64,000 nt of DNA from an uncultured Bacteroidales bacterium (lineage in GTDB: Bacteria; Bacteroidota; Bacteroidia; Bacteroidales; UBA932): assembly GCA_900317845.1 (NCBI GenBank), contig ONII01000004.1:62001-126000 (forward strand), read 5' to 3'. Positions 32,280 to 51,119 of the stretch are shown here, piece after piece (position 1 is the stretch's first letter; each line of letters opens with the position of its first letter). The position numbers were made by a program, and so were the translations under genes. The notes beneath the pieces are model-generated. The model did no database searches. It had not been told where the DNA came from and saw only the letters and a list, made by a program, of their open reading frames with translations.

Positions 32280-32338
32280 TGCTTCCCGGGCGTTTTAATG
32301 CTCCCCTGACTCTGGGTTGCCGCTCTCGCCGGGCCGCG

Positions 32339-32617
32339 TTAAAGCACACCCACCCCCTTTGAGTGCCCTCAGTGGCCTCCTGCTGTGCTTTAATGCCCTC
32401 TCTGGGCTGCGTTAAAGCACACCCACCCTCATCTGAGTGACCTCAGTGGCCTCCCGCTGTGCTTTAACCACCCTCCCCGGTCCCCGTTAAAGCACACCCA
32501 CCCTCATCTGAGTGACCCCTGTGGCCTCCTGCCGTGCTTTAACCACCTCCCCGGGCCCCGTTAAAGCACATCTCCCCCCCCTCTGAGTGCCCTCAGTGGC
32601 CTCCTGTTGTGCTTTAA
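32339..32617 (+). repeat. Left TTAAAGCACA repeat cluster (four units, 73-75 bp period)
   Basis: Four units of 55-57 bp at 32339-32393, 32412-32467, 32487-32542 and 32561-32617. Each begins TTAAAGCACA and ends TGTGCTTTAA (one end is CGTGCTTTAA), separated by 18-19 bp. The inner part is similar between units (GAGTGNCCTCAGTGGCCTCC). The cluster lies 60 bp downstream of the last gene of the outer-membrane operon. It reads in the same sense relative to that operon as the right cluster does relative to the NRPS operon. Confidence 0.9.
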
Positions 32618-34099: not shown

Positions 34100-34106
34100 A
34101 CGAGTG

Positions 34107-34114
34107 CAAAGGTA
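34107..34114 (-). promoter_or_regulatory. -7 element of hflX
   Basis: The minus strand reads TACCTTTG, matching TAnnTTTG, 7 bp upstream of the hflX ATG, with TTGA 19 bp further upstream. The leader would be near zero, so hflX may be leaderless. Confidence 0.5.
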
Positions 34115-34151
34115 CAAAAAAAGAGATGCCCGGTCAAGCCTGGTCTCCATG

Positions 34152-34966: not shown

Positions 34967-35106
34967 TCGCTGAGTCCACAGTCACAGAACCTTCGGAGGT
35001 GGGGTGGGCAGGACCAGCCACGAGCGGGGCAACCGCAACGGTCAGGGAGGACCGCCACGGGCGCATTTGGGGGCAAAAACGTGGCAACATCTGGACCAGC
35101 CAGTGG

Positions 35107-35460
35107 TTAAAGCACACCATGTGGCCACAGAGGGTACTCAGAGGGGGATGGGTGTGCTTTAACGGGGGCTGGGGAGGATGGTTAAAGCACAGGGGAATGG
35201 CTCTGAGGACGGTCTGAAGGGGGTGGGTGTGCTTTAATGGGGTTCAGGGATGGTGGTTAAAGCACAGGGGCATGGCTCTGAGGACGGCCTGGAGGGGGTA
35301 GGTGTGCTTTAACGTGAGCCAGGAGGGTGGTTAAAGCACAACAGGATGCCGCAGAGGGTGCTCTGATGAGGGAGGGTGTGCTTTAATGGGGTTCAGGGAT
35401 GGTGGTTAAAGCACAGGAGGATGCCCCAGAGACCACTCAGAGGGGGTAGGTGTGCTTTAA
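35107..35460 (-). repeat. Right TTAAAGCACA repeat cluster (five units, 75 bp period)
   Basis: Five units at 35107-35162, 35182-35237, 35257-35312, 35331-35386 and 35406-35460 are each framed by TTAAAGCACA and TGTGCTTTAA, 18-19 bp apart. Inner sequences are the reverse complement of those of the left cluster, so relative to the NRPS transcript they have the same orientation as the left cluster has to the outer-membrane operon. The cluster starts 172 bp beyond the stop of the second NRPS gene. Confidence 0.9.
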
Positions 35461-35475
35461 TGGGGGCCTGGGAGG

Positions 35476-35632
35476 GGCAAACCTTGCCCCGGCAGGACGA
35501 GGCAAGCCGGCAGGACGAGGCAAGCCGAGCATGACGGGCAAGTCGGGCATGACGAGGCAAACCGGTCAGGCCGGGCAGGACGGTCAAACCAGCCAAACCA
35601 GTCAGGCCAGCCAAGCCAGGCAGGCCAGGAGG
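35476..35632. repeat. Low-complexity tandem repeats after the NRPS operon
   Basis: GGCAGGACGAGGCAAGCC occurs twice in tandem. It is followed by variants containing GCATGACGGGCAAG and by CAGTCAGGCCAGCCAAGCCAG-like units. The ATGACGGGC motif also occurs inside the first NRPS gene (45410-45450). No gene is seen here. Confidence 0.65.
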
Positions 35633-38600
35633 TTATCCGAAATACTGCAGGGTTCGGAGCATTTCAAAAATCATATCCACATAGGCGGAGGAGGTGTGGT
35701 CCCAGGTGAAGCCCAGGCGGTAGAGCACCTGCATGGTGAAGTGCACGGATGGCTGGTTGATCACTGTCTCCTGCTCGGTGGGGGACTGGGCATAGGCCAC
35801 CAGGCTGCTCAGGAGCTGGGCCTTGTCCGGCTGGGCCATCAGGGCCTGCACCTGCGCCATAAATTCCGGGAATTCCACGTAATCCATCCTGTTGCCGTCT
35901 ATCTTCTGCAGCCGGGACACGATGTCTTCCATGGGCAGCAGGTGGTTGTTGGACACATTGAAGACGCAGTTTTCCCGCGGCGTTGTGGCCAGGAGCATCA
36001 TCGCGTGGGCGCTGTCGTCCACCGGCGAGAATTCCATCTTGGCATCCAGCAGGGAGTACGGGCAGGCCCCCAGCAGTTTGTAGGCCCTCAGGCGACCCAT
36101 GGTCGAGTTGGCATTGAAGTTTACCTGGAACTCGCCGTCCGCAGAGCGGGGCGACAGGTTGCCGGCGCGAAGGATCTTGGCGTTGAGGGCTCCGGCGGCC
36201 ATCCGCCCCAGAATGAACCGTTCCGCCATAAACTTGGAATGGACGTACTGGTTGGAGGTTTGCTGGCCAAAGTACAGCTGCTGTTCCGTGAGCTGTTTGG
36301 GACGACTGCCCGGGCTGGTACCGGACACGCTCTCCGTGGAGACGTGCACCAGACGGGCGGCCGTGGCCTCGCAGAAGGCGCAGAGGTTCTTGGCCCCGCC
36401 GTAGTTAATATCCTCAATATCAGTTCCCTTTGAGAAGTGCTTCACATTGGCGGCGCAGTTCACCACTACGCTCCAGGGAATGCCGGAAGCCTTGAGGGAA
36501 TCGAACACGGCCGGCTGGGTGATGTCCCCGTTCACTACGCGGATGCGCCTCCCAACAAGCGGCCGGTAATCTTTCTCAAAGTAGTACACCAGCATCTCTT
36601 TCAGGCGGCGCTCCGCCGAGAGGGTTCCCTTGGGCCGGAGGAGGCACCAGATGACAGTTTCTTCCGGCGTGTTTTCCACCAGCTCCCGCAGCATGTGGAT
36701 GCCCAGGAAGCCGGTGGCGCCTGTAAGCAGAATCTGCCCCTCCAAGCTTTGCTGCCGCCCGTTCAGGAAGGCCTCCAGCGTATTGCCGGCCAGCAGCTTG
36801 TCGATAGCGGTATAGTCGTACTGGCTAATCTCGCTGTCTTCCTTGGGAGCAGCCGGGACTCCCCCACCCAGGAAGGCGCCCAGCTCGCGGGCGGTAGGAT
36901 GGGCGAAGACATCGGCATAGGCAAACTTGAGACCGCGTTTTTCTGCGCATACCATCACGTTGGTCACCATGAGCGAAGAACCGCCCAGGTCGAAGAAATT
37001 GTCCGTTGCACCCACCTTTTCCATGCCCAGGACCTCGGCGAAAATCTCGCACAGGTCCTTTTCCAGGTCCGTGGCGGGGGCCACATATTCCCCTCCGGCG
37101 TCGGGCGTGGGTTTGGGCAGGGCCTTGCGGTCCACCTTCTGGTTCACGTTGAGCGGAATCCGGTCCAGCTGGACAAAGGAGGCCGGCACCATGTACGGCG
37201 GCTTGCGCTCCTGGATGAAGGCCTTGGCGGCCGGGATGTCAAAAGTGCCGTCAGAGACCACATACGCGGCGATAAACTTGCCGCCGGAAGGGTTGTCGAA
37301 GGCCTGCACCGTGATGTCCTTCACGCCCGGGCATTCCCGCAGCACTTCCTCCACTTCCTTCAGCTCGATGCGGAAGCCGCGAATCTTCACCTGACCGTCC
37401 TGACGGCCCACAAATTCGATGTTGCCGTCGGTTCTCCAGCGCACAATGTCGCCGCTCCGGTAGGCCCGCATGCCTTTGTGGAAAGGATTGTCGATAAAGA
37501 CCTCCGCCGTCTTTTCAGGCCGATTAAGATACCCCCTGCCCACGCAAGGGTTTCCGGCAATGAGCAGTTCTCCGGCGGCGCCCACCGGCACGCGACGGAA
37601 GTCGCCGTCCATCACATACATGCTGGTGTTGTCCAGGGCGTGGCCGATAGGAATGTTGGCCTCGCGCTTCTTCACGTCGAAGATGGTGGAGAAGATGGTG
37701 CACTCGGTGGGGCCGTAGCCGTTGTGGAAGCCATAGGAAGGCGGATCCATGGAAACCAGCTTTTCGCCGCCCACGGAGAGGTGCTTGAGGGACTTGTTGT
37801 CCGGGAAGTTCTTGGCGTACATCACACCCACCTGCGTGGTCATGAAGCTGTGGGTGATGCCGTTATCCGTGATAAAGGCATCCAGCTGGCTCATGTCGTG
37901 GCGGGTTTCCTCCGGGATAATGTGCAGGCATCCGCCGGCGGTGAGCACGGGATACATGTCCATCATGCACGCGTCGAAGCCGTAGCTGGCATAGGCCGCC
38001 ACCCGGCTGTGGTCCGTAAGCTTATAGTATTTCTGGTACCAGGCGCAGAAATTCACCAGGTTGTGGTGCTCCAGCATCACGCCCTTGGGTACGCCCGTGG
38101 AGCCGGAAGTGTACAGCAGGATAAAGAGGTTTTCCGGCCCGGGACCCGCAGGAACGGGGCCTTCTGGCAGGGACTCCAGCTCGTCGGTAGTGAGCACGGG
38201 TCCCGTGTACTCATTGAGCAGCGGCAGGAACTCTTGATCGGCAATGAGCAGTTTGGCCGATGCGTCCTTCACCATAAAATTGAGGCGCTCCTGCGGGTAG
38301 GAGGGATCCAGCGGCTGATAGGCGCAGCCGGCCTTGAGAATGCCCAGGGAAGCCAGCGCCATCCACTGGTTGCGGCCGATAAGTACGGATACCACGTCTT
38401 CCGTCTTCAGGCCCCTTGCGGCAATGGCGGCGGCGATGCGGTCCGTGAGGGCGTTGGCCTGCGCATACGTGCAGGTATAGTCCTGATAGCAAACAGCGGG
38501 CGCATCGGGCGTCTTTTGCGCCTGCCTGCGGAAGAGACTGACGATGGTTTGGCTCTCGTCCACCTTCAGGCTATAATGGTTGAAGCTTTCCAGCTCTTTG

Positions 38601-41600
38601 AGGCGCTCTCCGTCCACGAAGGGCACCTCGCAAAGTTTTTCGTGCGCCAGCAGGCCCCGGACCACGCATTCCATGGCATCGGCAAAGGCCTCCATAATGG
38701 CTTTGCTGTATTTGCTGTTGTCGTAGCCCAGTACGATGGCCTCCTTGCCCTCGGTGCCGTCGATGTAGATGCTCAGCGGGAACTTGGGCGCCCCGGCGTC
38801 CATATTTTCTCCCGTCACCGGCTTCCCGTTGATGCGGTAATCGGCCAGCACGCCCACCTGGTAGGCCAGCATCACCTGCGGCTGGAAGCCGAACTCCGCC
38901 GCTACCTTGGCAAAAGGATACTCCTGGTGCTGCAAGGTGGCCTGGAAGTCTTCGTCGCACTGTTTGAGGAAGGCTTCGGTGCTTTCCGTGGAGCAGTCTC
39001 CGGCAAGGGCCAGGGTGTTCACGAACATACCAAAGCTGTCGGCTGTTTTGAGGTTGCCGCGGCCATTGCTGATGGTGCAGATATACACCTTCTTGCTGGC
39101 ATTGTAGGCACTCAGGGTGAGGTAGGCGGCGCCCAGGTAGAAGCAGGCGGGCGAGATGCCCATTTTTTTGCAGAGCGGATGGATGTTGGCCTGAACCAGC
39201 TTTTGGAGGAAGACCTCGCGACCGGGCTGGTCGCTGTGCTCCAGGTCCGGAATGATGGTGGAAGGGCTCTCCAGGCCGTCCAGCTGCCGGGCAAAGAAGT
39301 CCCGGGCCCGGGCATAGGCCTCGCTGCCCTCCGCGGCTTTCTGCCAGGCGGCGTACTGGAAGTAGGTATAGGCCTCGGGGACTATCTCTTTTCCTTCCAG
39401 CGCGGAGCAGACTTCCTGGATAAAGAGGTCATAGCTGCGGCCGTCAAACACCAGGTGGTGGAAGTCGCTCAACAGGTATGTCTTGTCTTTTCCGGGCACA
39501 ATCACCACCTTCCCCAGCGGACCTTTGCCAAGGTCGAAGGGAAGGATGAAGCTCTCTTTCAAGGCTTCCAGTTCTCCCTCCTGGATGGAGACGGGGATGG
39601 GAATGTCGGTGGGGACCTGGCACACCTGTCCGTCTATCCGGTTAAAGCAGGACTGCAGGGCGGGATGGGCCGCCAGAACCTTCCGGACGGCCTCCTGCAG
39701 GGCCTGGGCCGATACATCCCCGGGGAAAGTCCACAGCATGGGAATGTTGTAGATGGTTTCCTGCGGGGCTTTCATGCAGTCCAGGAACACGCCGGCCTGC
39801 TGGTTGGTGAGGAGCTGGGGGTGGAGAGATTCTTCGCTTCGCTCAGAATGACAGGAAGCATCCCCGGCCATCCAGCTTTTAAGAATCTCGTTCTCAATGC
39901 TTTGCAGGGTGGCCGTTTTGGCAAAGCTGTTCATGTCGGCCTGAATGCCGTAGCGCTTGAACAGTTCGGTGGCCAGGCGCAGGCCGCTCAGGGAGCTGAG
40001 GCCGTAGAGCATGAGGGGTTCCGTGAGAGAGGCCCCTTCTATTCCGGTGGTTTCCTTGAGGAGGGCCACCAGTTCTTCTTCCAGGAGGTTGAGTGGCGCG
40101 GCCCCCTGGCCCTGGGCCTTTTTCGCCTGCGGCTTGGGCAGGGCCTTTACGTCCACCTTCTGGTTCACATTGAGCGGAATGGCTTCTATCTGCAGGGTGA
40201 CGGATGGCACCATGTAGGGCGGCTTGCGCTCCAGGATAAAGGCATTGAGGGCGGTGGTGTCTATCTCCCGGTCGCTCACCACGTACGCGGCCAGGAACTT
40301 GCCGCCGCCTTCCTGGTCAAAGGCCTGTACGGTGACGTCCTTGATGTCCGGGAATTCGCGGATGACGGCTTCCACCTCCTTGAGTTCTATGCGGAAGCCG
40401 CGGATTTTCACCTGGGCGTCTTTTCGGCCGATATATTCGATGTCTCCGTCGGGGCGGTAGCGCACAATGTCTCCGGTGCGGTACAGGCGCTTGTAGGCAG
40501 GATCTTGCTCATACGGGTTGCATGCAAAGGACTCTGCGGTTTTGTCCGGACGGCCCAGATAACCGTCTCCCACCTGCTCACCGGCCTCCAGCAGTTCTCC
40601 GGCGGCTCCCACGGGCACGCGCTTTCCGGCCTTATTCACTACATAACAGTGGATGCCGGGCATGGGAATGCCAATGGGGATGTTCTCTTCCTGCTTTTGC
40701 ACCTCCTTGGAAACCACATAACAGAGACTCTCGGAGGGGCCGTAGCAGTTGAACAGCTTGTAGCTGGGCAGCGGCAGGGCGCTCAGCTTTTCGCCGCCGG
40801 TGTACAGCACCTGCAGGCCCTTGCAACTGGGGTAGTTGATGGCAAACTGGGTGGCCACCTGGGTGGTCATGAAGCTGTGGGTAATGCCGTTCTCCTCAAA
40901 ATATTGGTGCAGTGCCTGGAGGTCCAGCCGGATTTCCTCGGGAATGAGGTACAGGGTGGCCCCGGCCGCCAGCGCACCATACAGGTCTCCCACAAAGGCA
41001 TCGAAGCCAAAACTGGAGTAGGCCGTGAGTTTGCTTTGGGCCGATATGTCCGTGCGCCAGGCATGGCGCTGGGCGAAGAGGCTTACGTTGCGGTGATTCA
41101 GCATACAGCCCTTGGGCGTACCGGTGGTGCCGCTGGTGTACAGGAGCACAAAGAGGTCCTCCGGCTTGGGGAGGGAAACAGGCTTGCCATCCGGCAGGGA
41201 AGGAATGTCCTTCGTTGCAAGCACCGGACCCTGGAAGCCCTCCACCAGTTCTGCCAGGCCTTCATCGGCAATGAGGAGGGCACTGGAGGCGTCTTGTACC
41301 ATGAACCGGAGGCGCTCCTTGGGATAGGACGGGTCCAGCGGCTGGTAGGCGCAGCCGGCTTTGATTACGCCCAGCGGGGCAATGACAGTGTATTCGCTCC
41401 GGCCCAGGATAATGGACACCACATGGCCGGGCTTGACGGTTTTTTCAATGTAGACGGCCAGTTTGTCCGACAGAAGATCTACTTCCTTGTAGGTCAGTTT
41501 CTTATCCTTGCATACAAGGGCCAGTTGCTCCGGCGCTTCTTGTACCCTTTCCCGCCAGAAATCCACCACGGTTTTCCCGGGATTTCCCACGGAGGCATCC

Positions 41601-42877
41601 GGATTGAAGCTGTCCAGCAGCTTGATCTGTTCCGGTGTGGCAAAGTCCAGCTGCCCTACGGTGTCGGCCTGCCTGAGCGACAGCACCGCGGCGGCCATAC
41701 TCTGGGCAAAGTTCCGCAGGATGCCCTCCGTGAACATGCTGGGCCGATACCAGAAGCGCATCATGTAAGGGCGGTCGGTGGGCGTAAAGAGCTCCACGGC
41801 GAGGTTCAGGCCCGGCGGATTGGTGCGGAGGTCTTCTCCCAGGACACGTTCTCCCGCGAGAACCAGCGAAGGGACTTCTACCACAAACTGGCCCTGGAAT
41901 CCAAAGTTGATGCCCGGGCCCAGGCCCAGGTAGGTGCCGCAGTCGGCCATGGAAAAGAACGGACGGGCCCTCAGGCCCATGGTCTGCGCCTTCATGTGGT
42001 CCAGCACCTCGCTCACCGGCGTATCCGGGGTGGCGTTCACAAAGGTGGGCAGGGTGTGCACGCACATGGTGAAGGCGGTTCTTGCCGCCACGCCCTTGCG
42101 GCCGTTCCAGATGGTGGAGAAGCTGGCGGCGTTGTCGGCATTCCAGGAGGCCAGCGTGAGGCCGAAGAGGGCGGTGAAAAGGATGCTGTCCGCATAACGG
42201 TAGCGCTCCAGGACCTCGTGCATGGCGGCGCTGTCCAGCGGCAGTTCCACCAGCAGCGACTTATAGGCCGACGGCTTGGCGCCAAAGACATCCGGCACAA
42301 TCCGGCTTTCGGTCTCCGTGGCCGGGCCGAACTCCTGCGCGAACCACTGCTTGGCCTCCTCGAAGGCCTCGCTTTCCCGCTGCGCCTGCTCTTGACGGGC
42401 AATATCGGCCCCGCTTATCTTCTCTGCCGGGACCTCCAGGCCCTCGTAGGCGGCCTGCAAATCCTGCAGCATGATCGGGATACAGGCACCGTCTGCAATG
42501 ATGTGGTGAAAGTCCCCGTAGAAGTAGGCGGCATTCGGCGTTTTGTAGAGCTCCAGGCGGAAGAGGCGGTCTTTGTGCAGGTCCATGGGCCGCGCAAAGG
42601 TCCCCCTTACCTGGTCGATGCTGTCTATTTCCTGAATCTCTGCCGTCCACGTTTCCTCAAGCTGTTCCATACACGGGACCCCGTCCACTTCCTTCACGCG
42701 GGAAAGGATGTAGGGATGGGCGGCCACAAAGGCCTCCAGGGCCTTTTTAAATTGTTGGAGGTCGATGGAAGGAGGCAACTTGAACAGCAGGGCCTGCTGG
42801 TAGTTGCCGGAATGGGCGTCCAGTCCCTGGCTGGAGAGGAACATGCTCAGTTGCGCTTGGGAAAGTGGAGAGGTCAT
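35633..42877 (-). CDS. Nonribosomal peptide synthetase, C-A-T-C-A-T-R
   Basis: The 2414-residue megasynthase has, in order: condensation domain (1-440, HHIIADG near 125); adenylation domain (445-925, YTSGTTG near 582); carrier (GLSSLSG near 959); condensation (1018-1440, HHLVFDG near 1140); adenylation (1450-1930, YTSGSTG near 1589); carrier (LGGSSL near 1964); and a thioester reductase domain (2050-2414, ILLTGATGFLG near 2050, YVHSK further on). The reductase should release the chain as an aldehyde using NAD(P)H. An N-terminal condensation domain with no carrier before it could acylate the first amino acid or accept a chain from elsewhere. By eye, the pocket residues of the adenylation domains read D-A-G-F-Y-G-C-C-Y and D-A-M-F-S-G-G-I-F. 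The gene follows its sister by 6 bp. Confidence 0.96.
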   Translation of the reverse strand: MTSPLSQAQLSMFLSSQGLDAHSGNYQQALLFKLPPSIDLQQFKKALEAFVAAHPYILSRVKEVDGVPCMEQLEETWTAEIQEIDSIDQVRGTFARPMDLHKDRLFRLELYKTPNAAYFYGDFHHIIADGACIPIMLQDLQAAYEGLEVPAEKISGADIARQEQAQRESEAFEEAKQWFAQEFGPATETESRIVPDVFGAKPSAYKSLLVELPLDSAAMHEVLERYRYADSILFTALFGLTLASWNADNAASFSTIWNGRKGVAARTAFTMCVHTLPTFVNATPDTPVSEVLDHMKAQTMGLRARPFFSMADCGTYLGLGPGINFGFQGQFVVEVPSLVLAGERVLGEDLRTNPPGLNLAVELFTPTDRPYMMRFWYRPSMFTEGILRNFAQSMAAAVLSLRQADTVGQLDFATPEQIKLLDSFNPDASVGNPGKTVVDFWRERVQEAPEQLALVCKDKKLTYKEVDLLSDKLAVYIEKTVKPGHVVSIILGRSEYTVIAPLGVIKAGCAYQPLDPSYPKERLRFMVQDASSALLIADEGLAELVEGFQGPVLATKDIPSLPDGKPVSLPKPEDLFVLLYTSGTTGTPKGCMLNHRNVSLFAQRHAWRTDISAQSKLTAYSSFGFDAFVGDLYGALAAGATLYLIPEEIRLDLQALHQYFEENGITHSFMTTQVATQFAINYPSCKGLQVLYTGGEKLSALPLPSYKLFNCYGPSESLCYVVSKEVQKQEENIPIGIPMPGIHCYVVNKAGKRVPVGAAGELLEAGEQVGDGYLGRPDKTAESFACNPYEQDPAYKRLYRTGDIVRYRPDGDIEYIGRKDAQVKIRGFRIELKEVEAVIREFPDIKDVTVQAFDQEGGGKFLAAYVVSDREIDTTALNAFILERKPPYMVPSVTLQIEAIPLNVNQKVDVKALPKPQAKKAQGQGAAPLNLLEEELVALLKETTGIEGASLTEPLMLYGLSSLSGLRLATELFKRYGIQADMNSFAKTATLQSIENEILKSWMAGDASCHSERSEESLHPQLLTNQQAGVFLDCMKAPQETIYNIPMLWTFPGDVSAQALQEAVRKVLAAHPALQSCFNRIDGQVCQVPTDIPIPVSIQEGELEALKESFILPFDLGKGPLGKVVIVPGKDKTYLLSDFHHLVFDGRSYDLFIQEVCSALEGKEIVPEAYTYFQYAAWQKAAEGSEAYARARDFFARQLDGLESPSTIIPDLEHSDQPGREVFLQKLVQANIHPLCKKMGISPACFYLGAAYLTLSAYNASKKVYICTISNGRGNLKTADSFGMFVNTLALAGDCSTESTEAFLKQCDEDFQATLQHQEYPFAKVAAEFGFQPQVMLAYQVGVLADYRINGKPVTGENMDAGAPKFPLSIYIDGTEGKEAIVLGYDNSKYSKAIMEAFADAMECVVRGLLAHEKLCEVPFVDGERLKELESFNHYSLKVDESQTIVSLFRRQAQKTPDAPAVCYQDYTCTYAQANALTDRIAAAIAARGLKTEDVVSVLIGRNQWMALASLGILKAGCAYQPLDPSYPQERLNFMVKDASAKLLIADQEFLPLLNEYTGPVLTTDELESLPEGPVPAGPGPENLFILLYTSGSTGVPKGVMLEHHNLVNFCAWYQKYYKLTDHSRVAAYASYGFDACMMDMYPVLTAGGCLHIIPEETRHDMSQLDAFITDNGITHSFMTTQVGVMYAKNFPDNKSLKHLSVGGEKLVSMDPPSYGFHNGYGPTECTIFSTIFDVKKREANIPIGHALDNTSMYVMDGDFRRVPVGAAGELLIAGNPCVGRGYLNRPEKTAEVFIDNPFHKGMRAYRSGDIVRWRTDGNIEFVGRQDGQVKIRGFRIELKEVEEVLRECPGVKDITVQAFDNPSGGKFIAAYVVSDGTFDIPAAKAFIQERKPPYMVPASFVQLDRIPLNVNQKVDRKALPKPTPDAGGEYVAPATDLEKDLCEIFAEVLGMEKVGATDNFFDLGGSSLMVTNVMVCAEKRGLKFAYADVFAHPTARELGAFLGGGVPAAPKEDSEISQYDYTAIDKLLAGNTLEAFLNGRQQSLEGQILLTGATGFLGIHMLRELVENTPEETVIWCLLRPKGTLSAERRLKEMLVYYFEKDYRPLVGRRIRVVNGDITQPAVFDSLKASGIPWSVVVNCAANVKHFSKGTDIEDINYGGAKNLCAFCEATAARLVHVSTESVSGTSPGSRPKQLTEQQLYFGQQTSNQYVHSKFMAERFILGRMAAGALNAKILRAGNLSPRSADGEFQVNFNANSTMGRLRAYKLLGACPYSLLDAKMEFSPVDDSAHAMMLLATTPRENCVFNVSNNHLLPMEDIVSRLQKIDGNRMDYVEFPEFMAQVQALMAQPDKAQLLSSLVAYAQSPTEQETVINQPSVHFTMQVLYRLGFTWDHTSSAYVDMIFEMLRTLQYFG
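39827..39854 (-). repeat. 28-bp dispersed repeat translated inside NRPS linker
   Basis: On the minus strand the repeat runs from CTGTCATTCTGAGC to GCGAAGAATCT. It encodes SCHSERSEES between the first carrier and the second condensation domain (residues about 1005-1015). The same repeat occurs at 47138-47165 and 51839-51866. Confidence 0.9.
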
Positions 42878-42883
42878 GGCGGA

Positions 42884-45800
42884 TTATCCAAAATATTGCA
42901 GGGTTCGGAGCATCTCGAAGATAAGGTCCAGGTAGTCGCTGGAGGTGTGGTCCCAGCGGAAGCCCAGGCGGTGCAGCACTTGCATGGTGTAGGCGGTGGA
43001 AGGAACGGTTTCTACGCCTTCCGCTTCTGCGGCGGACTGCTGGTAGGCTACCAGCGGCGCCATGATGCGCGTCTTGGCAGGGTCTGCGTTGGCTTTTTCC
43101 ACACGGCGGCCGAATTCGTCGTTCTCCACGTATTCCAGCGGTTTGCCGTCAATCTTCTCCAGACGCACCAGAATATCGTCCATGGGGATGAGGTGGTTGT
43201 TGGACACGTTGAAGACGCAGTTCTCCAGCGGCGTGCGGGAGAGCAGGACCATGGCGCGGGCCGACTGGTCGATGGGCGAGAACTCCATCTGTCCTTCCAG
43301 TAGCTGGAACGGGCAGGCGCCCAGCATCTTGAAGGCCTTGAGACGTCCCATGGAGGCGTTGGCGTTCAGGTTCACCTGGAACTCGCCGTCCTCCGCGCGG
43401 GGCGACAGGTTGCCGGCGCGCATGATTTTGGCCTTGAGCGTTCCTGCAACCATGTGCTCCAGGATATAGCGCTCTGCCAGGAACTTGGAGTGGACATACT
43501 GGTTGTCCGTGAGCTGACCGAAGAAGAGCATCTGCTCCGTGAGGGTTCCGGGAACATAGCCCGGGGTAAGGCCGCCCACGCTCTCGGTGGAGACATGTAC
43601 CAGGTAGGCGCCATTGCGCTCGCAAAGGGCCACCAGGTTCTTGACGCCGCCGTAGTTAATGTCCTCAATGTCCGTTCCTTTGGAGAAGTGCTTCACATTG
43701 GCGGCGCAGTTGAACACCGTGTCTATCTGCGTAAGCGGCTCCAGCGTCTGGGGCTGGGTAATGTCTCCCGCGACGGGCCGGATGCGCGTTCCCAGGAGCT
43801 TGCGGTAGTCTTTCTCGAAGTAATACACCAGCATTTCGCGCAGGCGGCGCTCCGGGGAAACGCTGCCCTTGGGCCTGAGCAGGCACCAGATGGTGGTGTC
43901 CGGCCCGGTGCTCTCGATGAGTTCCTTGAGCATGTGGATGCCCAGGAAGCCCGTGGCGCCGGTGAGCAGGATATTGCGTCCCAGGTGGAGGTGTTCCCCG
44001 CCCAGGAAGGATTCCAGCGTGTTTTTGGAGAGCAGGGCGTCGATGGCGGAGTAGTCGTAGTCCGTAATGTTGCTGTCCTGCTCCTGTACCGCTACCTCGC
44101 CTGTGAGGAAGGCCGCAAGGGAGCGGGCCGACGGGTGCGAGAACACGTCCGAATAGGCAAAGTGCAGGCCTTGTTTCTCGGCGCTCACCATCACGTTGGT
44201 GACCATGAGCGAGGAACCTCCCAGGTCGAAGAAGGAGTCCGTGGCGCCCACGCGCTCCATGCCCAAGATATCGGCAAAGATGGCGCAAAGGGCTTTTTCC
44301 GTTTCGCCGACGGGGGCGACGTACTCGTCCATGGAGGTGGGAACGAGCTCCGGCAGGGCCTTGCGGTCTACCTTCTGGTTCACGTTGAGCGGAATCTTGT
44401 CCAGCTGCATCCAGGCGGCGGGTACCATGTAGGACGGCTTGCGCTCGCGGATGAAGTCGCCGGCGGCTTTGGGGTCGAAGGTGCCTTCCGCCACCACATA
44501 CGCAGCCAGGAACTTGCCGCCGGACGGGGCGTCCAGCGCCTGCACCGTGACGTCTTTCACGCCCGGGAACTCCTGCAGCACGCCTTCCACTTCCTTGAGC
44601 TCGATGCGGAAGCCGCGGATCTTGACCTGACGGTCCTTTCTGCCCACAAATTCAATATTGCCGTCGGCCCGGTACCGTACAATATCGCCGGAGTGGTACA
44701 TGCGCGTACCCGGCTGGAACGGACTGTCCACAAAGCATTCGGCCGTCTTTTCCGGGTTGTTGAGGTAGCCGCGGCCCACACCGGCGCCGCTGATGAGCAG
44801 CTCACCGGCGGCCCCCACGGGCAGGCGACGCAGGTGACGGTCGGCCACGTACAGCGGCATGTTGCTCAGCGGATGGCCGATAGGAATGTTTTCCTCCCGC
44901 TCCTCCACCTTGAAGATGGTGGTGAAGATGGTGCATTCCGTGGGGCCGTACCCATTGTAGAAATTGTAGGACGGCGGCGGCATGGAGATGAGTTTTTCAC
45001 CGCCCACGGAGAGGTGCCTGAGGACCGGATTGTCCGGGTAGTTCTTGGCATACATCACACCTACCTGGGTGGTCATGAAGCTGTGGGTTACGCCATTGTC
45101 GATGAGGAAGCGGTTCAGGGCGCCCAGGTCGTGACGGACATCCTCTGGGATGATGCAGATGCAGGCTCCGCAGGAGAGGGCGGGATACTGGTCCATCATG
45201 TTGGCGTCGAAGCCGTAGCTGGCGAAGGCCGCCACTTTGTCTCCGGGCTGGAGCTTGTAGTAGTCCTGGTACCAGGCGCAGAAGTTCACCAGGTTGCGGT
45301 GTTCCAGCATAACGCCCTTGGGCGTGCCGGTGGAACCGGAAGTGTACAGCAGGATGTACAGGTTCTCCGGCTTGGGATTGCCGATCGGGGTCGGCAATGA
45401 CGCCCCGCCCGTCATGCCCGGCAACGACGAATTGTCCGTCATGCCCGGCAGCGACCGGGCATCTTCCAGCTCCGCCGTGGTGAGCACGGGCCCGGTGTAG
45501 TCCCCTACCAGCGGGATGAGTTCTTTGTCGGCAATGAGGAGCTTGGCGCCGGAGTCCTGAATCATGAAGTTGAGGCGCTCCGTGGGGTAGGACGGATCCA
45601 GCGGCTGGTAGGCGCAGCCTGCTTTCATGGCAGCCAGGGAGGCCTTGGTCATCCAGGCGTTGCGGTTAATCAGGACCGAAACCACATCTTCTTCCCCGAG
45701 ACCGTACGACAGGATTTTGGCCGCCAGGGCATCCGTATAGGCGTCCAGTTCCTTATAGCTGATGGTTTTTCCGTCGAAGAGCACGGCCGGAGCATCCGGG

Positions 45801-48800
45801 GTGGCCTGGGCCTGTTTGCGGAACAGGTCCACGATGGTGAGGCTCAGGTCCACTTCCTGGGTGTAGTTGTTAAAGCTGTCCAGCTGCTTGAGGCGTTCCC
45901 CGTCCACAAACGGAATCTCCGTGAGCGGAACGTTCTTCAGCAGACCCCGCACCACGCACTCCATGGCGTCTGCAAAGGACTGGATGAGCGGCTCCGAGTA
46001 CAGGCTGCTGTCGTAGGCCAGGGCCAGTTCCGGGGCCTCCTCCGTTCCTTCGATGAAGATGCTCAGCGGGAACTTGGGGGTGTCCTGCGTAATGAGCTCG
46101 TCCTCAAGCGGTTTGCCGTTGATGGTGTACTTTTCCACGAGCCCTACTTGGTAGGCCAGCATAACCGCCGGGTGGAAGTCGTAGGCCGATGCCACGCGGG
46201 CGAAGGGATAGTTCTGGTAAGAGAGCGTGGTGGCAAAGTTGCGGTCCGTCTCCTTGAGGAAGTCATCGGCCTTCCGGTCCCCTACCTCTCCGGAAAGGGC
46301 CATGGTGTTCACGAACATGCCGTAGGTGTCGGCGCAGCGCATGTCACTGCGGCCGTTGGCCACCGTGCACATGTAAATTTTTTGCTGCCCGCAGAACGCG
46401 CCTATCGTGACGTAGGCGGCACCCAGGAAGTAGCTGGCCGGGGAGATGCCCAGTTCATGGCAGCGGGCCATGACATCGGCCCCAATCTTTTTGCGGAGCC
46501 AGATTTCGTGGCCAATCTCGTCTTCCAGGGGCGTTTTGTCCGGTATAACGCCGGTTTCGTCCTCCTTGCCGGCGATTTGCGCGGCAAAGAAGGCTTCTGC
46601 CTCCTGGAATGCTGCGCTGTCCTGGTAGGCTTTTTGGTCTCGGGCGTAGCTAAAGTAGGTATAGTCCTCTTTTTCAGGTGCTTTGCCTTCCAGGGCGGCG
46701 GTGAGCTGGCCCAGGAAAAGGTCGTAGGAGTGGCCGTCAAAGATGAGGTGGTGGAAGTCGCCCATCAGGCGCAGCTTGCCGGGCGTTTGCACCAGGGTGA
46801 GCCTGTAGAGCGGACCGGAAAGGTCGAAGGGCTGCATGAAGGCCTCTTTGAGAGCCTCGTATTCTTCTTCGCTGCCCAGCTTGACGGAAGGGATTTCTTC
46901 CTCTGCCCGGGCGGGCACCAGGTACACTTTTCCGTCCCGCTGCTCAATGCGGGCGGTAAGGGCTGGATGGGCCTCCAGTACGTCCAGAAGGGCTTTTTTG
47001 ACCTCCCCTGCCAGCGTTCCTTCCGGGAAGGTGAGGATGAACGGCAGGTTGTAAGCGGTGGACGAAGGGTTCCTGACGCAGTCCAGGTATAGGCCGGTTT
47101 GCTGGAAGGTGAGCTCCTGGGGCTGGTCTTCCCCATTAGATTCTTCGCTGCGCTCAGAATGACAGGAATCTCCCGACAGAAGGATGTCCAGGATATCGTT
47201 CTCTATGCTTTGCAGGCTGGCGGTTTTGGCAAAGCTGTTCATGTCCGGCTCCAGGCCGAAGCGCTTGTACAGTTCCGTAGCCAGGCGCAGGGCACCCAGG
47301 GACGACAGGCCACTGTAATACAGCGGGTCTGTGAGGCCGAAGCCGCCAATGCCCACGCTCTCCTTGATGATGTCGCTGATTTGCTGTTCCAGCTTGTTGA
47401 GCGGCGCCACGTGGGCCTCCGCCTTGTGCTCCTGCGGTTCCGGCTTGGGAAGGGCCTTCACGTCCACTTTCTGGTTCACATTCAGCGGAATGGCTTCTAT
47501 CTGCATGGTAACGGCCGGCACCATGTACGGCGGTTTTTTGCTGGCAATAAAGGCGTCCAGCTCCTGGATGTTTATCTCCTTGGGGCTGACGATGTACGCT
47601 GCCAGGAACTTGCCGGCACCGGCGCCGGGCTCGTCAAAGGCCTGCACCGTAACGTCTTTAATGTCAGGGAATTCGCGGATGATGGCCTCTACTTCCTTGA
47701 GCTCGATGCGGAAGCCGCGGATTTTCACCTGGCCGTCTTTTCGGCCCATGAATTCAATTTTGCCGTCTTCCCGCTCGCGGACAATGTCTCCGGTGCGGTA
47801 GGCCGTGGCGTACTTGGGGTCATCGTCAAAGGGATTCTTCACAAAGACCTCTGCGGTTTTGTCCGGCCGGTTGAGGTAGCCCAGGCCCACCTGTTTTCCG
47901 GTGATCCAGAGTTCTCCCGGCTCGCCTTTGGGCACCTGCTTGCCGTCCTTGACCACATAGACCTTAATATCTTTGAGGGGAAGGCCGATGGGGATGTTCT
48001 CTTCCTGTTTTTTCACTTCTTCGCAGAGCACGTAGCAGATGGTTTCCGTGGGGCCGTAGCAGTTGAACAGGCGGTAGTGCGGCAGCGGGAAGCTGGACAT
48101 TTTTTCGCCGCCGGTGTACAGAATTTTGAGGCCCTTGCAGTCCGGATAGTTGATGGCGAACTGGGTGGCCACCTGGGTGGTCATGAAGCAGCAGGTGATG
48201 CCGTTTTGCTCAAAATACTCGTGCAGGGCGGGCAGGTTGAGCCGGATGCGATCCGGAATAATGTAGAGGGTGGCACCGCTGATGATAGCGCTGTACAGGT
48301 CCGCCACAAAGGCGTCGAAGCCAAAGCTGGCGTAGGCTGTCATGCGGGTGGTATGGTCCATGCCCATGAGCTCGCTGTGGTGGCTGCAAAAGGCGTAAAT
48401 GTTCCTGTGGCAGAGCATGCAGCCCTTGGGCGTGCCGGTGGTGCCGCTGGTGTACAGCAGGATGAACAGGTCCTCCGGTTTGGGCGGCTGTGCCTTGGGC
48501 GTGCCGGGATGCAGTTTGCGGATGTCGGCGGTTTTCAGGACGGGGCCCTTGTACTCCTTCAGGATGGGAAGGAGGTCTTCGTCGGCCACCAGCATTTTTG
48601 CGCCGGCGTCTTTCATCATGAATTCCAGGCGCTCCGGCGGGTACGAAGGGTCCAGCGGGAGGTAGGCGCAACCGGCTTTGAGCGCGCCCAGCGGGGCCAG
48701 CATCATGTACTCGTTGCGGCCCAGCATAATGCCCACAACGCTTCCTGCGGGCACTTGGGTTTCTATATAAGCGGCGAGGTTGTCTGTCAGTTTTTCTACC

Positions 48801-48910
48801 TCTGCGTAGGTCAAACGGATGTTTTCATAGACCACGGCAGTTTGGTTGGAATGGGCTTTCACCTGTTGGTGAAAAGCTTCCAGAACAGTGTTGCAAGAAC
48901 TTTGGCTCAT
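42884..48910 (-). CDS. Nonribosomal peptide synthetase, A-T-C-A-T-R (AusA-like architecture)
   Basis: The 2008-residue enzyme has: adenylation (15-500, YTSGTTG near 154); carrier (YYSGLSSLGA near 536); condensation (600-1010, HHLIFDG near 722); adenylation (1050-1530, YTSGSTG near 1191); carrier (FFDLGGSSLMV near 1566); and thioester reductase (1645-2008, GATGFLG near 1651, YVHSK near 1807). This is the layout of staphylococcal AusA, whose dipeptide aldehyde cyclises to pyrazinones. Pocket residues by eye: D-A-A-F-Y-G-C-C-Y and D-A-M-F-S-G-G-I-F. GTG at 48913 precedes the ATG by one codon; I use the ATG. A promoter-like TAAATTTG lies upstream. No phosphopantetheinyl transferase gene is near. 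Confidence 0.96.
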   Translation of the reverse strand: MSQSSCNTVLEAFHQQVKAHSNQTAVVYENIRLTYAEVEKLTDNLAAYIETQVPAGSVVGIMLGRNEYMMLAPLGALKAGCAYLPLDPSYPPERLEFMMKDAGAKMLVADEDLLPILKEYKGPVLKTADIRKLHPGTPKAQPPKPEDLFILLYTSGTTGTPKGCMLCHRNIYAFCSHHSELMGMDHTTRMTAYASFGFDAFVADLYSAIISGATLYIIPDRIRLNLPALHEYFEQNGITCCFMTTQVATQFAINYPDCKGLKILYTGGEKMSSFPLPHYRLFNCYGPTETICYVLCEEVKKQEENIPIGLPLKDIKVYVVKDGKQVPKGEPGELWITGKQVGLGYLNRPDKTAEVFVKNPFDDDPKYATAYRTGDIVREREDGKIEFMGRKDGQVKIRGFRIELKEVEAIIREFPDIKDVTVQAFDEPGAGAGKFLAAYIVSPKEINIQELDAFIASKKPPYMVPAVTMQIEAIPLNVNQKVDVKALPKPEPQEHKAEAHVAPLNKLEQQISDIIKESVGIGGFGLTDPLYYSGLSSLGALRLATELYKRFGLEPDMNSFAKTASLQSIENDILDILLSGDSCHSERSEESNGEDQPQELTFQQTGLYLDCVRNPSSTAYNLPFILTFPEGTLAGEVKKALLDVLEAHPALTARIEQRDGKVYLVPARAEEEIPSVKLGSEEEYEALKEAFMQPFDLSGPLYRLTLVQTPGKLRLMGDFHHLIFDGHSYDLFLGQLTAALEGKAPEKEDYTYFSYARDQKAYQDSAAFQEAEAFFAAQIAGKEDETGVIPDKTPLEDEIGHEIWLRKKIGADVMARCHELGISPASYFLGAAYVTIGAFCGQQKIYMCTVANGRSDMRCADTYGMFVNTMALSGEVGDRKADDFLKETDRNFATTLSYQNYPFARVASAYDFHPAVMLAYQVGLVEKYTINGKPLEDELITQDTPKFPLSIFIEGTEEAPELALAYDSSLYSEPLIQSFADAMECVVRGLLKNVPLTEIPFVDGERLKQLDSFNNYTQEVDLSLTIVDLFRKQAQATPDAPAVLFDGKTISYKELDAYTDALAAKILSYGLGEEDVVSVLINRNAWMTKASLAAMKAGCAYQPLDPSYPTERLNFMIQDSGAKLLIADKELIPLVGDYTGPVLTTAELEDARSLPGMTDNSSLPGMTGGASLPTPIGNPKPENLYILLYTSGSTGTPKGVMLEHRNLVNFCAWYQDYYKLQPGDKVAAFASYGFDANMMDQYPALSCGACICIIPEDVRHDLGALNRFLIDNGVTHSFMTTQVGVMYAKNYPDNPVLRHLSVGGEKLISMPPPSYNFYNGYGPTECTIFTTIFKVEEREENIPIGHPLSNMPLYVADRHLRRLPVGAAGELLISGAGVGRGYLNNPEKTAECFVDSPFQPGTRMYHSGDIVRYRADGNIEFVGRKDRQVKIRGFRIELKEVEGVLQEFPGVKDVTVQALDAPSGGKFLAAYVVAEGTFDPKAAGDFIRERKPSYMVPAAWMQLDKIPLNVNQKVDRKALPELVPTSMDEYVAPVGETEKALCAIFADILGMERVGATDSFFDLGGSSLMVTNVMVSAEKQGLHFAYSDVFSHPSARSLAAFLTGEVAVQEQDSNITDYDYSAIDALLSKNTLESFLGGEHLHLGRNILLTGATGFLGIHMLKELIESTGPDTTIWCLLRPKGSVSPERRLREMLVYYFEKDYRKLLGTRIRPVAGDITQPQTLEPLTQIDTVFNCAANVKHFSKGTDIEDINYGGVKNLVALCERNGAYLVHVSTESVGGLTPGYVPGTLTEQMLFFGQLTDNQYVHSKFLAERYILEHMVAGTLKAKIMRAGNLSPRAEDGEFQVNLNANASMGRLKAFKMLGACPFQLLEGQMEFSPIDQSARAMVLLSRTPLENCVFNVSNNHLIPMDDILVRLEKIDGKPLEYVENDEFGRRVEKANADPAKTRIMAPLVAYQQSAAEAEGVETVPSTAYTMQVLHRLGFRWDHTSSDYLDLIFEMLRTLQYFG
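45380..45465 (-). repeat. Repeat-derived insertion in the second adenylation domain of the first NRPS
   Basis: CGTCATGCCCGGC occurs twice (near 45410 and 45437). Read in frame it gives SLPGMT twice in about 25 extra residues (about 1150-1177) between the ELEDA and PKPENLY segments. The sister NRPS has only about six residues there (ESLPEGPVPAGPGPENLF). The insertion lies just before the A3 loop YTSGSTG. Confidence 0.75.
47138..47165 (-). repeat. 28-bp dispersed repeat translated inside first NRPS linker
   Basis: The repeat encodes SCHSERSEES (residues about 580-590) between carrier 1 and the condensation domain, the same place as in the sister NRPS. It differs from the 39827 copy at one base. 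Confidence 0.9.
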
Positions 48911-48931
48911 CACTTTAGTGTTTGGTTTTCA

Positions 48932-48939
48932 CAAATTTA
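48932..48939 (-). promoter_or_regulatory. -7 element of the NRPS operon
   Basis: The minus strand reads TAAATTTG, a match to TAnnTTTG, 21 bp upstream of ATG 48910. It lies in an AT-rich 100-bp gap shared with the divergent phosphatase gene. No clean TTTG is seen at -33, so an activator or another sigma factor may be needed. Confidence 0.45.
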
Positions 48940-49013
48940 AATATAATTTTCAATTTTTATCGTTTTGAGTTGTCGAAAACAAATGATAACTTTACAGTTT
49001 GATAGAAAAAGGC

Positions 49014-51119
49014 ATGAAAAAACTGGATTCCGCTTGGATAACCCGCGTGGGAATTGTGGTCTTCGCCGCTGTGCTGGTGGAGGTCATTTCCGTGGTGCAG
49101 TACCAGCGGCTCCGTGGTATGATGGCGGAGGAGATGAACCTTAGGAGCAAGGTGGTCCTGGGCTCCATGGTCCACGATATCGAGCATATGCTGGAACTCA
49201 CGGAGGTTACCCTGGCAGAGAACAAGTGGGACATCATGCGGCACCTGAACAATCCGGATTCCCTTTTCCCGGTTATGGTGCGTCTGATCGACGACAATCC
49301 CAACGTGGTGGGCGGCTGCCTGGCCTTCATGCCTTATTACTATCCTTCCCTCGGCCGCCTTTTTGAGCCCTATGCCCACAAATTGCCGGATGGCAGTATT
49401 GTGACCGAACAACTAGGTACGCCGGAGCACGATTATAGCCAAAATCCGGAATTCCTCTGGTCCCTGGATCACCTGGGGCCCTCCTGGACAGACCCTTATC
49501 TCTACGGGACGGACTCCCTTTCCTATGCCACCTATTCTGTGCCCATCTACAATAATGAGGGCCGGTTGGCGGCCCTGTGCGGTCTGGACATCGACCTTTC
49601 TTGGCTGGGAGATACACTCAATGCCCATCAGCCCTACGAGAATTCTTTTGGCCTGTTACTCACTGTAGAGGGCGATCTGGTGGCCGGGCCTTCAGTGGCG
49701 CGCATTCCCCGGGAGGAGGTTTTCCGGGTAGTGGAAATTGTAAATGGGCGGGTGCCCGAGACCGATTTTCCGGGTCTTGCCATCCGGAAAACGCAACTGG
49801 AAAAGGAGCCTTTCTGGCAACTCATCCAGGTGTACCAGACGAACGAAGTCTTTGGGCCGATGCAAAAGATGCGGCACCAGCACATCCTCTTTATGCTGCT
49901 GGGTCTGGCTGTCCTCGCTTTCATGATCAACCGCTACGCGCGGAACGAGAACAAACTCAGGGTGGCATCGGCCGAGCAGGCGCGAATAGGCGGAGAACTG
50001 GCGGTTGCACGGGATATTCAGCAGCAAATGCTCCCCAAGGTGTTTCCTTCCTATGTATATGGCACGCTGGAACCGGCGCTGGAAGTGGGCGGAGACCTGT
50101 ACGACTTCTACATCCGGGACGGCAAGCTGTTCTTCTGTATTGGCGATGTAAGCGGCAAGGGGGTACCGTCGGCCATGCTCATGTCCATGATTCATTCGCT
50201 GTTCCGCGTGGTGTCCCGGAAGGAGGAGAGCCCTTCGCAGATTCTGGGGGCCCTGAACAACCAGCTTTGCGCCGGCGACGACAACAATATGTTTGTGACG
50301 TGCTTTGTGGGTTGCCTGGACTTGTATACGGGTAAGCTCAATTATGCGAATGCCGGTCATGATAAACCCTTTCTTCTTACTTCATCGGCCTCTTTGCTGC
50401 CGGTCAAGGCGAATCTTCCCCTAGGCGTTTTCCCGGATACGCAGTTCGAACTTCAGTCCATGCTGCTTTCTCCTGGCAGCACGCTTTTCCTTTATACCGA
50501 TGGTCTTACGGAGGCTAAGAACAAGTTTCGCCAGGCCCTGGGTCGTGAAAGGGTTCAGCAAGTGTTGGATTATTCTATGAGCATTGGCGCAGATACTCCT
50601 GAGGAGCTTGTGGGTGCGTTGAGTGCAGAGGCTCGTACTTTTGCCGAAGATTGTCCCCAGAGCGACGACCTCACTCTCCTTTGTATCCGGTTCCAGCCGG
50701 GCCATACCCTTTCCGAGAACATCACGCTTGGAAACAATAAGGAAGAGGTGGCGGCCCTGAGCGATTTTGTAAAGCATTTCCTGGGGCAAATCGAGATGGA
50801 GCGCCGGGTTTCCGCAGGGCTTCGTCTGGCGCTGGAGGAGGTCGTGGTGAACGTGATGAATTACGCCTATCCTCCCGGCGAGCACGGGGAGGTAACAGTG
50901 TATGCAGACAGCAATTATAAAGAGGTCCGGTTCACGGTTGTGGACTCCGGCTTCCCCTTCGACCCCACGGCTGTTTTGTCGGTAGATACCACCCTGGATG
51001 CCCAGAACCGCCCTATTGGAGGCCTGGGAATCCACCTTACCCGTAAAATGGTAGACTCCGTTTCCTACTCCCGTAAACACGGATTCAATGTATTAACTTT
51101 AACCAAATCCATATCATGA
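49014..51119 (+). CDS. Membrane SpoIIE-type phosphatase with sensor and kinase-like domains
   Basis: The 701-residue protein has two membrane helices (about 9-27 and 290-305) flanking an extracytoplasmic Cache-like sensor (about 30-285). After a HAMP-like coil comes a PP2C/SpoIIE phosphatase (EVGGDLYDFY, IGDVSGKGVPSAMLM, LYTDGLTEA, CPQSDDLTLLCIRF). A C-terminal RsbW-like ATPase domain (EEVVVNVMNYAYP, GGLGIHLTRKMVD) follows. Such proteins dephosphorylate a STAS antagonist and here may also rephosphorylate it. The STAS gene follows with a 4-bp overlap. ATG 49014 fits best; a TTG at 48999 is in frame. It is divergent from the NRPS operon. Confidence 0.9.
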   Translation: MKKLDSAWITRVGIVVFAAVLVEVISVVQYQRLRGMMAEEMNLRSKVVLGSMVHDIEHMLELTEVTLAENKWDIMRHLNNPDSLFPVMVRLIDDNPNVVGGCLAFMPYYYPSLGRLFEPYAHKLPDGSIVTEQLGTPEHDYSQNPEFLWSLDHLGPSWTDPYLYGTDSLSYATYSVPIYNNEGRLAALCGLDIDLSWLGDTLNAHQPYENSFGLLLTVEGDLVAGPSVARIPREEVFRVVEIVNGRVPETDFPGLAIRKTQLEKEPFWQLIQVYQTNEVFGPMQKMRHQHILFMLLGLAVLAFMINRYARNENKLRVASAEQARIGGELAVARDIQQQMLPKVFPSYVYGTLEPALEVGGDLYDFYIRDGKLFFCIGDVSGKGVPSAMLMSMIHSLFRVVSRKEESPSQILGALNNQLCAGDDNNMFVTCFVGCLDLYTGKLNYANAGHDKPFLLTSSASLLPVKANLPLGVFPDTQFELQSMLLSPGSTLFLYTDGLTEAKNKFRQALGRERVQQVLDYSMSIGADTPEELVGALSAEARTFAEDCPQSDDLTLLCIRFQPGHTLSENITLGNNKEEVAALSDFVKHFLGQIEMERRVSAGLRLALEEVVVNVMNYAYPPGEHGEVTVYADSNYKEVRFTVVDSGFPFDPTAVLSVDTTLDAQNRPIGGLGIHLTRKMVDSVSYSRKHGFNVLTLTKSIS

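Follow-up and report, generated by a model that had tools for sequence, protein, structure and literature searches.

Two nonribosomal peptide synthetases (NRPSs) and a candidate regulator occupy an island in the genome of an uncultured, rumen-type Bacteroidales bacterium (assembly GCA_900317845.1). The 64,000-nucleotide stretch of contig ONII01000004.1 that was analysed is referred to here as the window. The synthetases, N1 (window 42884-48910) and N2, follow each other on the minus strand, a SpoIIE-STAS gene pair diverges from N1, and the whole lies between the housekeeping genes ybeY and hflX. N1 is a real, intact synthetase. This much had been recognized in a first-pass annotation of the window, which described N1 as a single synthetase and overlooked N2, the SpoIIE-STAS module and the island. 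On balance, we favor the reading that the locus is a self-contained biosynthetic island, combining paired dipeptide-aldehyde synthetases with a partner-switching sensor.

In the proposed scheme: i) N1 would load two amino acids, probably hydrophobic, join them once and release the dipeptide aldehyde in a reductive step that uses NAD(P)H; having a free N-terminus, this aldehyde could close to a dihydropyrazinone or pyrazinone; ii) N2 would join an identical or almost identical pair after its leading condensation domain has capped the N-terminus, probably by acylation; provided that this domain is a starter, the N2 aldehyde could not cyclise in this way because its N-terminus is capped, and it would stay reactive, of the protease-inhibitor type; iii) a Cache-SpoIIE-HATPase protein would sense an extracytoplasmic ligand and dephosphorylate the STAS protein, which would then switch a putative partner controlling the synthetases; and iv) regulator and synthetases would move as one unit in and out of the ybeY/hflX junction.

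Domain structure and predicted products of N1 and N2

The N1 open reading frame (ORF; 42884-48913, minus strand) encodes 2009 aa if translation starts at the GTG at 48913, or 2008 aa if it starts at the ATG at 48910. Pfam identifies two AMP-binding stretches (AMP-binding, 5.5e-148), one Condensation, two PP-binding and a C-terminal NAD_binding_4 match. The order of the adenylation (A), thiolation (T, carrier), condensation (C) and thioester reductase (R) domains was read with hidden Markov models (HMMs) made from the window's own domains. For N1 these return the A-T-C-A-T-R order of the staphylococcal aureusimine synthetase AusA, as the first-pass annotation had stated. The N1 and N2 sequences were also read for what we take to be the condensation (HHxxxDG) and carrier serine motifs, and the nine pocket positions of each A domain were placed by landmarks that we presume to be those of GrsA. 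The features are as follows.

42884-48910, minus strand: N1, A-T-C-A-T-R synthetase, 2008 aa (ORF, Pfam, own-domain HMMs)
47447-48904, minus strand: N1 A1, pocket DAAFYGCCY (HMM; presumed GrsA landmarks)
47165-47410, minus strand: N1 T1 carrier, GLSSL serine present (sequence and HMM)
47138-47164, minus strand: in-frame CHSERSEES codons over a 24-bp interspersed repeat, N1 T1-C linker
45878-47125, minus strand: N1 condensation domain, HHLIFDG (sequence and HMM)
44351-45844, minus strand: N1 A2, pocket DAMFSGGIF (HMM; presumed GrsA landmarks)
44093-44320, minus strand: N1 T2 carrier, LGGSSL (sequence and HMM)
42887-43990, minus strand: N1 thioester reductase domain, GATGFLG, STES and YVHSK kept (Pfam, HMM, alignment)
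35633-42877, minus strand: N2, C-A-T-C-A-T-R synthetase, 2414 aa, ATG 6 bp past the N1 stop
41612-42877, minus strand: N2 leading condensation domain C1, HHIIADG, 24% identical to the N1 condensation domain
40136-41584, minus strand: N2 A1, pocket DAGFYGCCY (HMM; presumed GrsA landmarks)
39860-40099, minus strand: N2 T1 carrier, GLSSL (sequence and HMM)
39827-39853, minus strand: second in-frame copy of the 24-bp repeat, in the equivalent T1-C linker of N2
38588-39823, minus strand: N2 condensation domain C2, HHLVFDG (sequence and HMM)
37115-38557, minus strand: N2 A2, pocket DAMFSGGIF (HMM; presumed GrsA landmarks)
36857-37084, minus strand: N2 T2 carrier, LGGSSL (sequence and HMM)
35636-36757, minus strand: N2 thioester reductase domain (Pfam, HMM, alignment)

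The loss of reductase catalytic residues that the first-pass annotation had named as grounds for refutation was not found. When the N1 R domain was aligned with 15 others (39-81% identical to it), GxxGxxG, S136/T137, Y167 and K171, numbered by the aligned fragment, were invariant in all 16 sequences. N1 thus ends in an R domain of the short-chain dehydrogenase/reductase type with the GxxGxxG motif, Thr, Tyr and Lys that mark a reductase-released NRPS, a class whose products are aldehydes or alcohols, and the reductase, carrier and condensation residues that were checked are kept in both N1 and N2. Release of the product as an aldehyde is, on these residues, highly likely, and the aldehyde/pyrazinone class suggested earlier is accepted as the likely, predicted one. 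The R domains of N1 and of locus L069 share 96% identity (L-numbers denote synthetase loci of relatives and G-numbers genomes, G000 being the window's own). The ratio of nonsynonymous to synonymous substitution rates (dN/dS) of N1 is 0.10 against L069 and 0.13 against L070; that of N2 against L089 is 0.14. Both genes are under purifying selection, and the domain call for N1 is far beyond chance given the 96% identity and the dN/dS of 0.10.

N1 and N2 are 64% identical in A1, 64% in T1, 48% in the shared C domain, 69% in A2, 74% in T2 and 67% in R. Despite an A-domain divergence of 31-36%, the A1 pockets differ at one position (DAAFYGCCY in N1, DAGFYGCCY in N2) and the A2 pocket is DAMFSGGIF in both, the commonest A2 string (51 of the 93 A2 domains examined). 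The loaded amino acids are probably hydrophobic; the prediction is held at that level because the pocket positions rest on presumed landmarks and no code table. The amino acids used by the two lines would be identical or alike, and the main difference between the lines would be the leading C domain of N2, which sits at the N-terminus with no upstream carrier in cis, the position of a starter condensation domain. Since the pockets are nearly alike and N2 has this extra domain, the paired lines are suggested to yield one dipeptide aldehyde in a capped and an uncapped form, a suggestion to which we lean slightly. All three condensation-domain matches of the 2.41-Mb genome (estimated 97.75% complete) fall in N1 and N2.

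Two short repeats were noticed within the synthetases. The 24-bp interspersed repeat of the linkers occurs at 28 genome sites at <=2 mismatches, both synthetase copies included, and its reversed control at 0. It is also found in the linker of L070, with variants in L076 and L078, and in none of 11 other relatives whose linkers were examined. A repeat-like peptide, SLPGMT, occurs twice inside N1 A2 (window about 45400-45454) and once in L114.

The SpoIIE-STAS module beside the synthetases

The genes diverging from N1, the intergenic region and the features that bound the island are listed below.

48911-48998, no strand: 88-bp AT-rich divergent intergenic region between N1 and SpoIIE (sequence)
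48999-51119, plus strand: Cache-type sensor - SpoIIE PP2C phosphatase - HATPase (RsbW-like) protein, 706 aa
51116-51418, plus strand: STAS anti-anti-sigma-type protein, 100 aa
51419-51838, plus strand: ybeY, housekeeping flank, right island edge
32915-34150, minus strand: hflX, housekeeping flank, left island edge
35103-35476, no strand: array of about 75-bp repeats in the N2-hflX gap, inverted relative to the array at 32325-32617

The sensor part of the SpoIIE protein matches MCP-like_PDC_1 above the Pfam cut-off and dCache_1 below its own. A PP2C phosphatase, an HATPase kinase and a STAS protein, the parts of a partner-switching module, are all present. The RsbU/SpoIIE - RsbV/SpoIIAA - RsbW systems have the same three domains; the module differs from them in that the phosphatase and HATPase are fused to a Cache-type sensor and no sigma factor lies among the 24 neighbouring ORFs scanned. 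In the intergenic region, TAAATTTG (minus strand, 48911-48998) fits what we take to be the Bacteroidetes -7 box, TAnnTTTG, a fit that carries no chance estimate.

The module recurs beside related synthetases. Neighbours were counted at 101 loci, after 12 had been dropped as duplicates, using HMMs built from the neighbours seen in an initial count (SpoIIE at 45 and STAS at 26 of 103 loci) that the present one supersedes; 91 loci were evaluable, a total flank of 4 kb being required, and near-duplicates such as L048/L049/L050 stay in the count. Within 4 kb of the synthetase, SpoIIE was found at 50 of the 91, STAS at 46 and both at 43. Other neighbours were phosphopantetheinyl transferase (PPTase) at 19 loci, an alginate-export-like outer-membrane protein at 15, an SNF transporter at 9 and MatE at 5. 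When R domains were grouped into lineages by single linkage, SpoIIE was present in 15/19 at 70%, 5/8 at 60% and 18/25 evaluable at 75%. In the window's family SpoIIE lies beside the synthetase at 18 of 32 loci versus 0.39 expected (about 1.2% per locus from SpoIIE density), and 29 of the 30 family genomes with an R-domain match carry SpoIIE.

The placement of SpoIIE varies among loci: upstream divergent, upstream on the same strand, or downstream. In L134 and L138, for example, SpoIIE, STAS and PPTase stand in line with the synthetase, and G162 has two divergently placed synthetases with SpoIIE beside each. Shorter linked SpoIIE proteins that match neither HATPase nor sensor occur in L037 (a second copy) and L048. 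The outer-membrane neighbour of L103 scores 31.1 bits with Pfam Alginate_exp (cut-off 25.2), those of L134 and L146 score below the cut-off, and the L051 neighbour has no Pfam match at 0.001. Away from the synthetases, the window's own genome carries a second SpoIIE adjoining STAS (G000:C25:127875-129186).

These counts make it likely that the SpoIIE-STAS pair regulates the synthetase or is functionally tied to it. Rumen peptide-aldehyde synthetases would thereby gain a candidate regulator and a signal input, and the conditions of their expression would become testable. A link of SpoIIE or partner switching to such synthetases is not described in any title or abstract opening listed by searches of the open-licence literature. 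What seems to be new is that the synthetases are paired, that partner-switching genes recur beside them and that alleles are exchanged, as described below. A similar setting occurs in an archaeon. The passages drawn on from a paper on Methanobrevibacter ruminantium (PMC2812497) describe the NRPS mru0068, with two C-A-T modules and a terminal domain given as a thioesterase in the text and as a thioester reductase in the legend of Figure S8, and place next to it two serine phosphatases along with MatE and an anti-sigma factor antagonist. It resembles N2 in the two C-A-T modules and the present locus in its phosphatase/anti-sigma-antagonist surroundings, and differs in being archaeal, a single case and lacking an A-starting partner; those passages contain neither a neighbour survey nor island data. 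Because of these similar neighbours beside a methanogen NRPS, the unit may be common to rumen bacteria and archaea.

Several observations weigh against the favored reading. SpoIIE is absent within 4 kb at 41 of the 91 evaluable loci, and, the loci being related, their adjacency counts do not represent independent cases. Of the 249 family genomes 140 have SpoIIE, and 111 of these, by a by-eye comparison of lists, have no R-domain match; the module therefore has other jobs too. At L057-L060, L062 and L064, which belong to the 41 loci and come from another genus of the family, an extracytoplasmic function (ECF) sigma factor, a 400-aa conserved protein and a PPTase replace SpoIIE-STAS (in the L057 pair, Pfam matches the sigma factor and finds nothing in the 400-aa protein). 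No cognate sigma factor or other output was found among the 24 ORFs neighbouring the synthetases, the only part of the genome in which it was sought. The same ORFs contain no PPTase, and the island has no dedicated PPTase or exporter; the one PPTase-family gene of the genome is on another contig and has AcpT as its best NCBIfam model, below the cut-off. As for the cap, the profile of N2 C1 ranks bacitracin, tyrocidine and PvdL first among solved C domains, far above the entries that we take to be starter domains (rhizomide-type and CDA); the chains ranked by the C2 profile are largely the same.

A broader version of the favored reading is tentative at best. In it, the locus would be a widespread, exchangeable chemical-signalling cassette of rumen Bacteroidales: the Cache-SpoIIE-STAS module would be the cognate sensor of the aldehyde or pyrazinone, if not of AI-2 or another community signal, and would gate the paired synthetases with their capped and uncapped products, and entire alleles, sensor and synthetase together, would be swapped at fixed sites of the chromosome so that kin differ in chemotype and sensing. 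SpoIIE is named among dCache receptor types in the available part of an AI-2 paper (PMC9540692).

The island between ybeY and hflX

The window insert between ybeY and hflX is 17.3 kb and consists of STAS, SpoIIE, N1, N2, repeats and small ORFs, two of which, in the hflX-N2 gap, were tested and have no Pfam match. Across 41 genomes of the genus, the ybeY-hflX distance, read from listed coordinates, is <100 bp in 5 and 0.8-1.6 kb in 26; an island is present in 3, and ybeY and/or hflX were not found in 7. A TonB-type sequence fills the gap in both fetched members of the 0.8-1.6 kb class (n=26). The empty site in close relatives identifies the insert as a genomic island. G284 carries a smaller insert of 8.9 kb with N1 only.

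The contents of the site are also swapped. The flanks of G253 are nearly identical to those of the window (HflX 99%, YbeY 98%, MnmG 93%), whereas its SpoIIE (60%), STAS (78%) and synthetase (72%, to the first 1159 residues of N2) have diverged. The G253 synthetase is C-starting and ended by the contig end; ybeY and the island are on one contig and hflX on another. From this contrast between flanks and contents, it is very probable that regulator and synthetase are exchanged as a unit, and ybeY/hflX is a chromosomal site where close relatives carry different synthetase-plus-regulator alleles. There is no tRNA in the window and no integrase among the ORFs scanned; we therefore infer exchange by homologous recombination through the flanks.

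The varying contents of the ybeY/hflX site in close relatives, together with the frequency of SpoIIE in the family (140/249 genomes), would also suit an unrelated sensor that merely shares a recombination hotspot with the synthetases. We regard this as unlikely, in that the SpoIIE-synthetase pair recurs at loci around which no homologue of ybeY, mnmG or hflX was found, and the gene order there differs, genes for PPTase and outer-membrane proteins standing in between (e.g., L134, L138).

The hflX gene itself is bracketed by two arrays of about 75-bp repeats in inverted orientation (window 32325-32617 and 35103-35476). G253 (L157) has a colinear left flank (94%) but a flipped hflX. It is flipped also in L155, L073 and L075, where the exact 10-base repeat core was searched for and not found. 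It is possible that the hflX segment is invertible.

Family placement and lineages of the synthetases

Among NCBIfam models, AusA (NF047350) scores best with N1 as well as with N2, at 953.9 and 984.4 bits versus a cut-off of 2500, and the R domain is closer to PDB entry 6vtj (1.8e-58) than to the AusA R domain (3.7e-27). The entry title of 6vtj reads merely 'Non-ribosomal peptide synthetase'; we take it to be a rumen-methanogen archaeal domain. N1 and N2, as judged from sequence, are thus AusA-like in layout and chemistry and are no AusA orthologues; of the term "AusA-like" in the first-pass annotation, the domain order stands and the orthology falls. AusA-type lines activate Val and then Phe or Tyr; for N1 and N2, the corresponding reading consists of the nine-residue pocket codes given above. 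As far as the sources drawn on describe it, AusA/PznA shares with N1 the A-T-C-A-T-R order and reductive release (PMC12153313, PMC8210680). The present locus differs from AusA in the additional leading C of N2, in having no AusB-type PPTase gene beside N1/N2 among the 24 neighbouring ORFs and in the partnering of N1 with N2 and SpoIIE-STAS. At L134, the one locus whose PPTase was tested by NCBIfam, AusB is the best match, below the cut-off.

Gut dipeptide-aldehyde lines, ruminopeptin and its kin, end in a reductase and are known mostly from Firmicutes. Like the predicted products of N1 and N2, those of this group (ruminopeptin of Ruminococcus bromii; the pyrazinone/aldehyde family) are dipeptide aldehydes made by NRPSs; one study, whose passages drawn on do not mention regulation or island context, isolated them as pyrazinones (PMC12327764).

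The assignment of the window to Bacteroidales agrees with its nearest named records, which are Bacteroidales metagenome-assembled genomes. A scan of species genomes gave 572 confirmed related stretches, of which the best 80 were kept; 79 of these 80 have titles naming Bacteroidota taxa and one 'bacterium P3', and many name ruminant stomach compartments. Within the window's family, 7 of 25 genera include genomes with related R domains, 30 genomes out of 249 in all. A plasmid search returned 30 records, all <60% identity, the highest among the matches listed being 32.6%; the R domain of a Staphylococcus epidermidis NRPS on one plasmid record is only 26% identical. In the rumen, 5,346 NRPS clusters in 8,160 genomes are reported in the part of a survey that was available, the vast majority in Firmicutes and 934 in Bacteroidaceae (PMC8241843). 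The earlier remark that NRPSs are uncommon in Bacteroidales thus fails in the rumen and does not make the locus unusual, since such clusters have already been described in bulk; reductase-ended synthetases of this type are not rare in rumen Bacteroidales.

A tree of 105 R-domain rows, built by a quick method and with one measure of support, places N1 in a 24-row clade (SH-aLRT 100) of 17 A-starting or cut, 6 partial and 1 C-starting (L087) members. N2 groups with L089, L075 and L090 (support 99). Recent tandem duplication was rejected as the origin of the N1-N2 pair, the two belonging to separate supported groups. The C-starting L087 complicates the idea that the N1 clade lost its leading C once and cleanly. 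This locus (L087:3881-11110, at the ybeY/hflX site) looks like a recombinant, because its front part, C1-A1-T1-C2, is nearest the N2 group and its rear part, A2-T2-R, nearest the N1 group.

The identity of the N1 domain order with that of AusA, as given in the available part of PMC12153313, could mean that the locus is an AusA-type pyrazinone pathway, with the pyrazinone itself as the signal and the N2 cap a detail. C-starting lines are the commoner ones in the tree (57/105 rows versus 21/105 A-starting or cut), and N-capping would block ring closure; these points render such a pathway doubtful as an account of the locus.

Less probable still is a single assembly line in which C1 of N2 takes the dipeptidyl intermediate from the N1 carrier, yielding a tetrapeptide aldehyde and bypassing the N1 reductase. 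The 6-bp spacing on the same strand suits it, as does the recurrence of the N1-then-N2 order in L075 and, broken and ended by the contig end, in L072. Against this, the intact N1 R domain would release the product of N1. Within the limited flanks fetched, a complete C-A-T-C-A-T-R is the only synthetase ORF at 50 of the 54 loci of relatives that have one, and, outside the window, 13 of 14 full-length A-T-C-A-T-R loci of the N1 clade likewise show no second synthetase; the C-starting lines evidently do not need N1.

Decay or silence of the genes, which the patchy distribution (30/249 family genomes) and some broken or split relatives (L052, L107, L115, L140) might suggest, is very improbable, N1 and N2 being full length with residues kept and dN/dS of 0.10-0.14 versus relatives. 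In a further relative, L070 (3203-10465), synthetase and HflX form one 2421-aa open frame, which may be a natural fusion, a lost stop or an assembly error.

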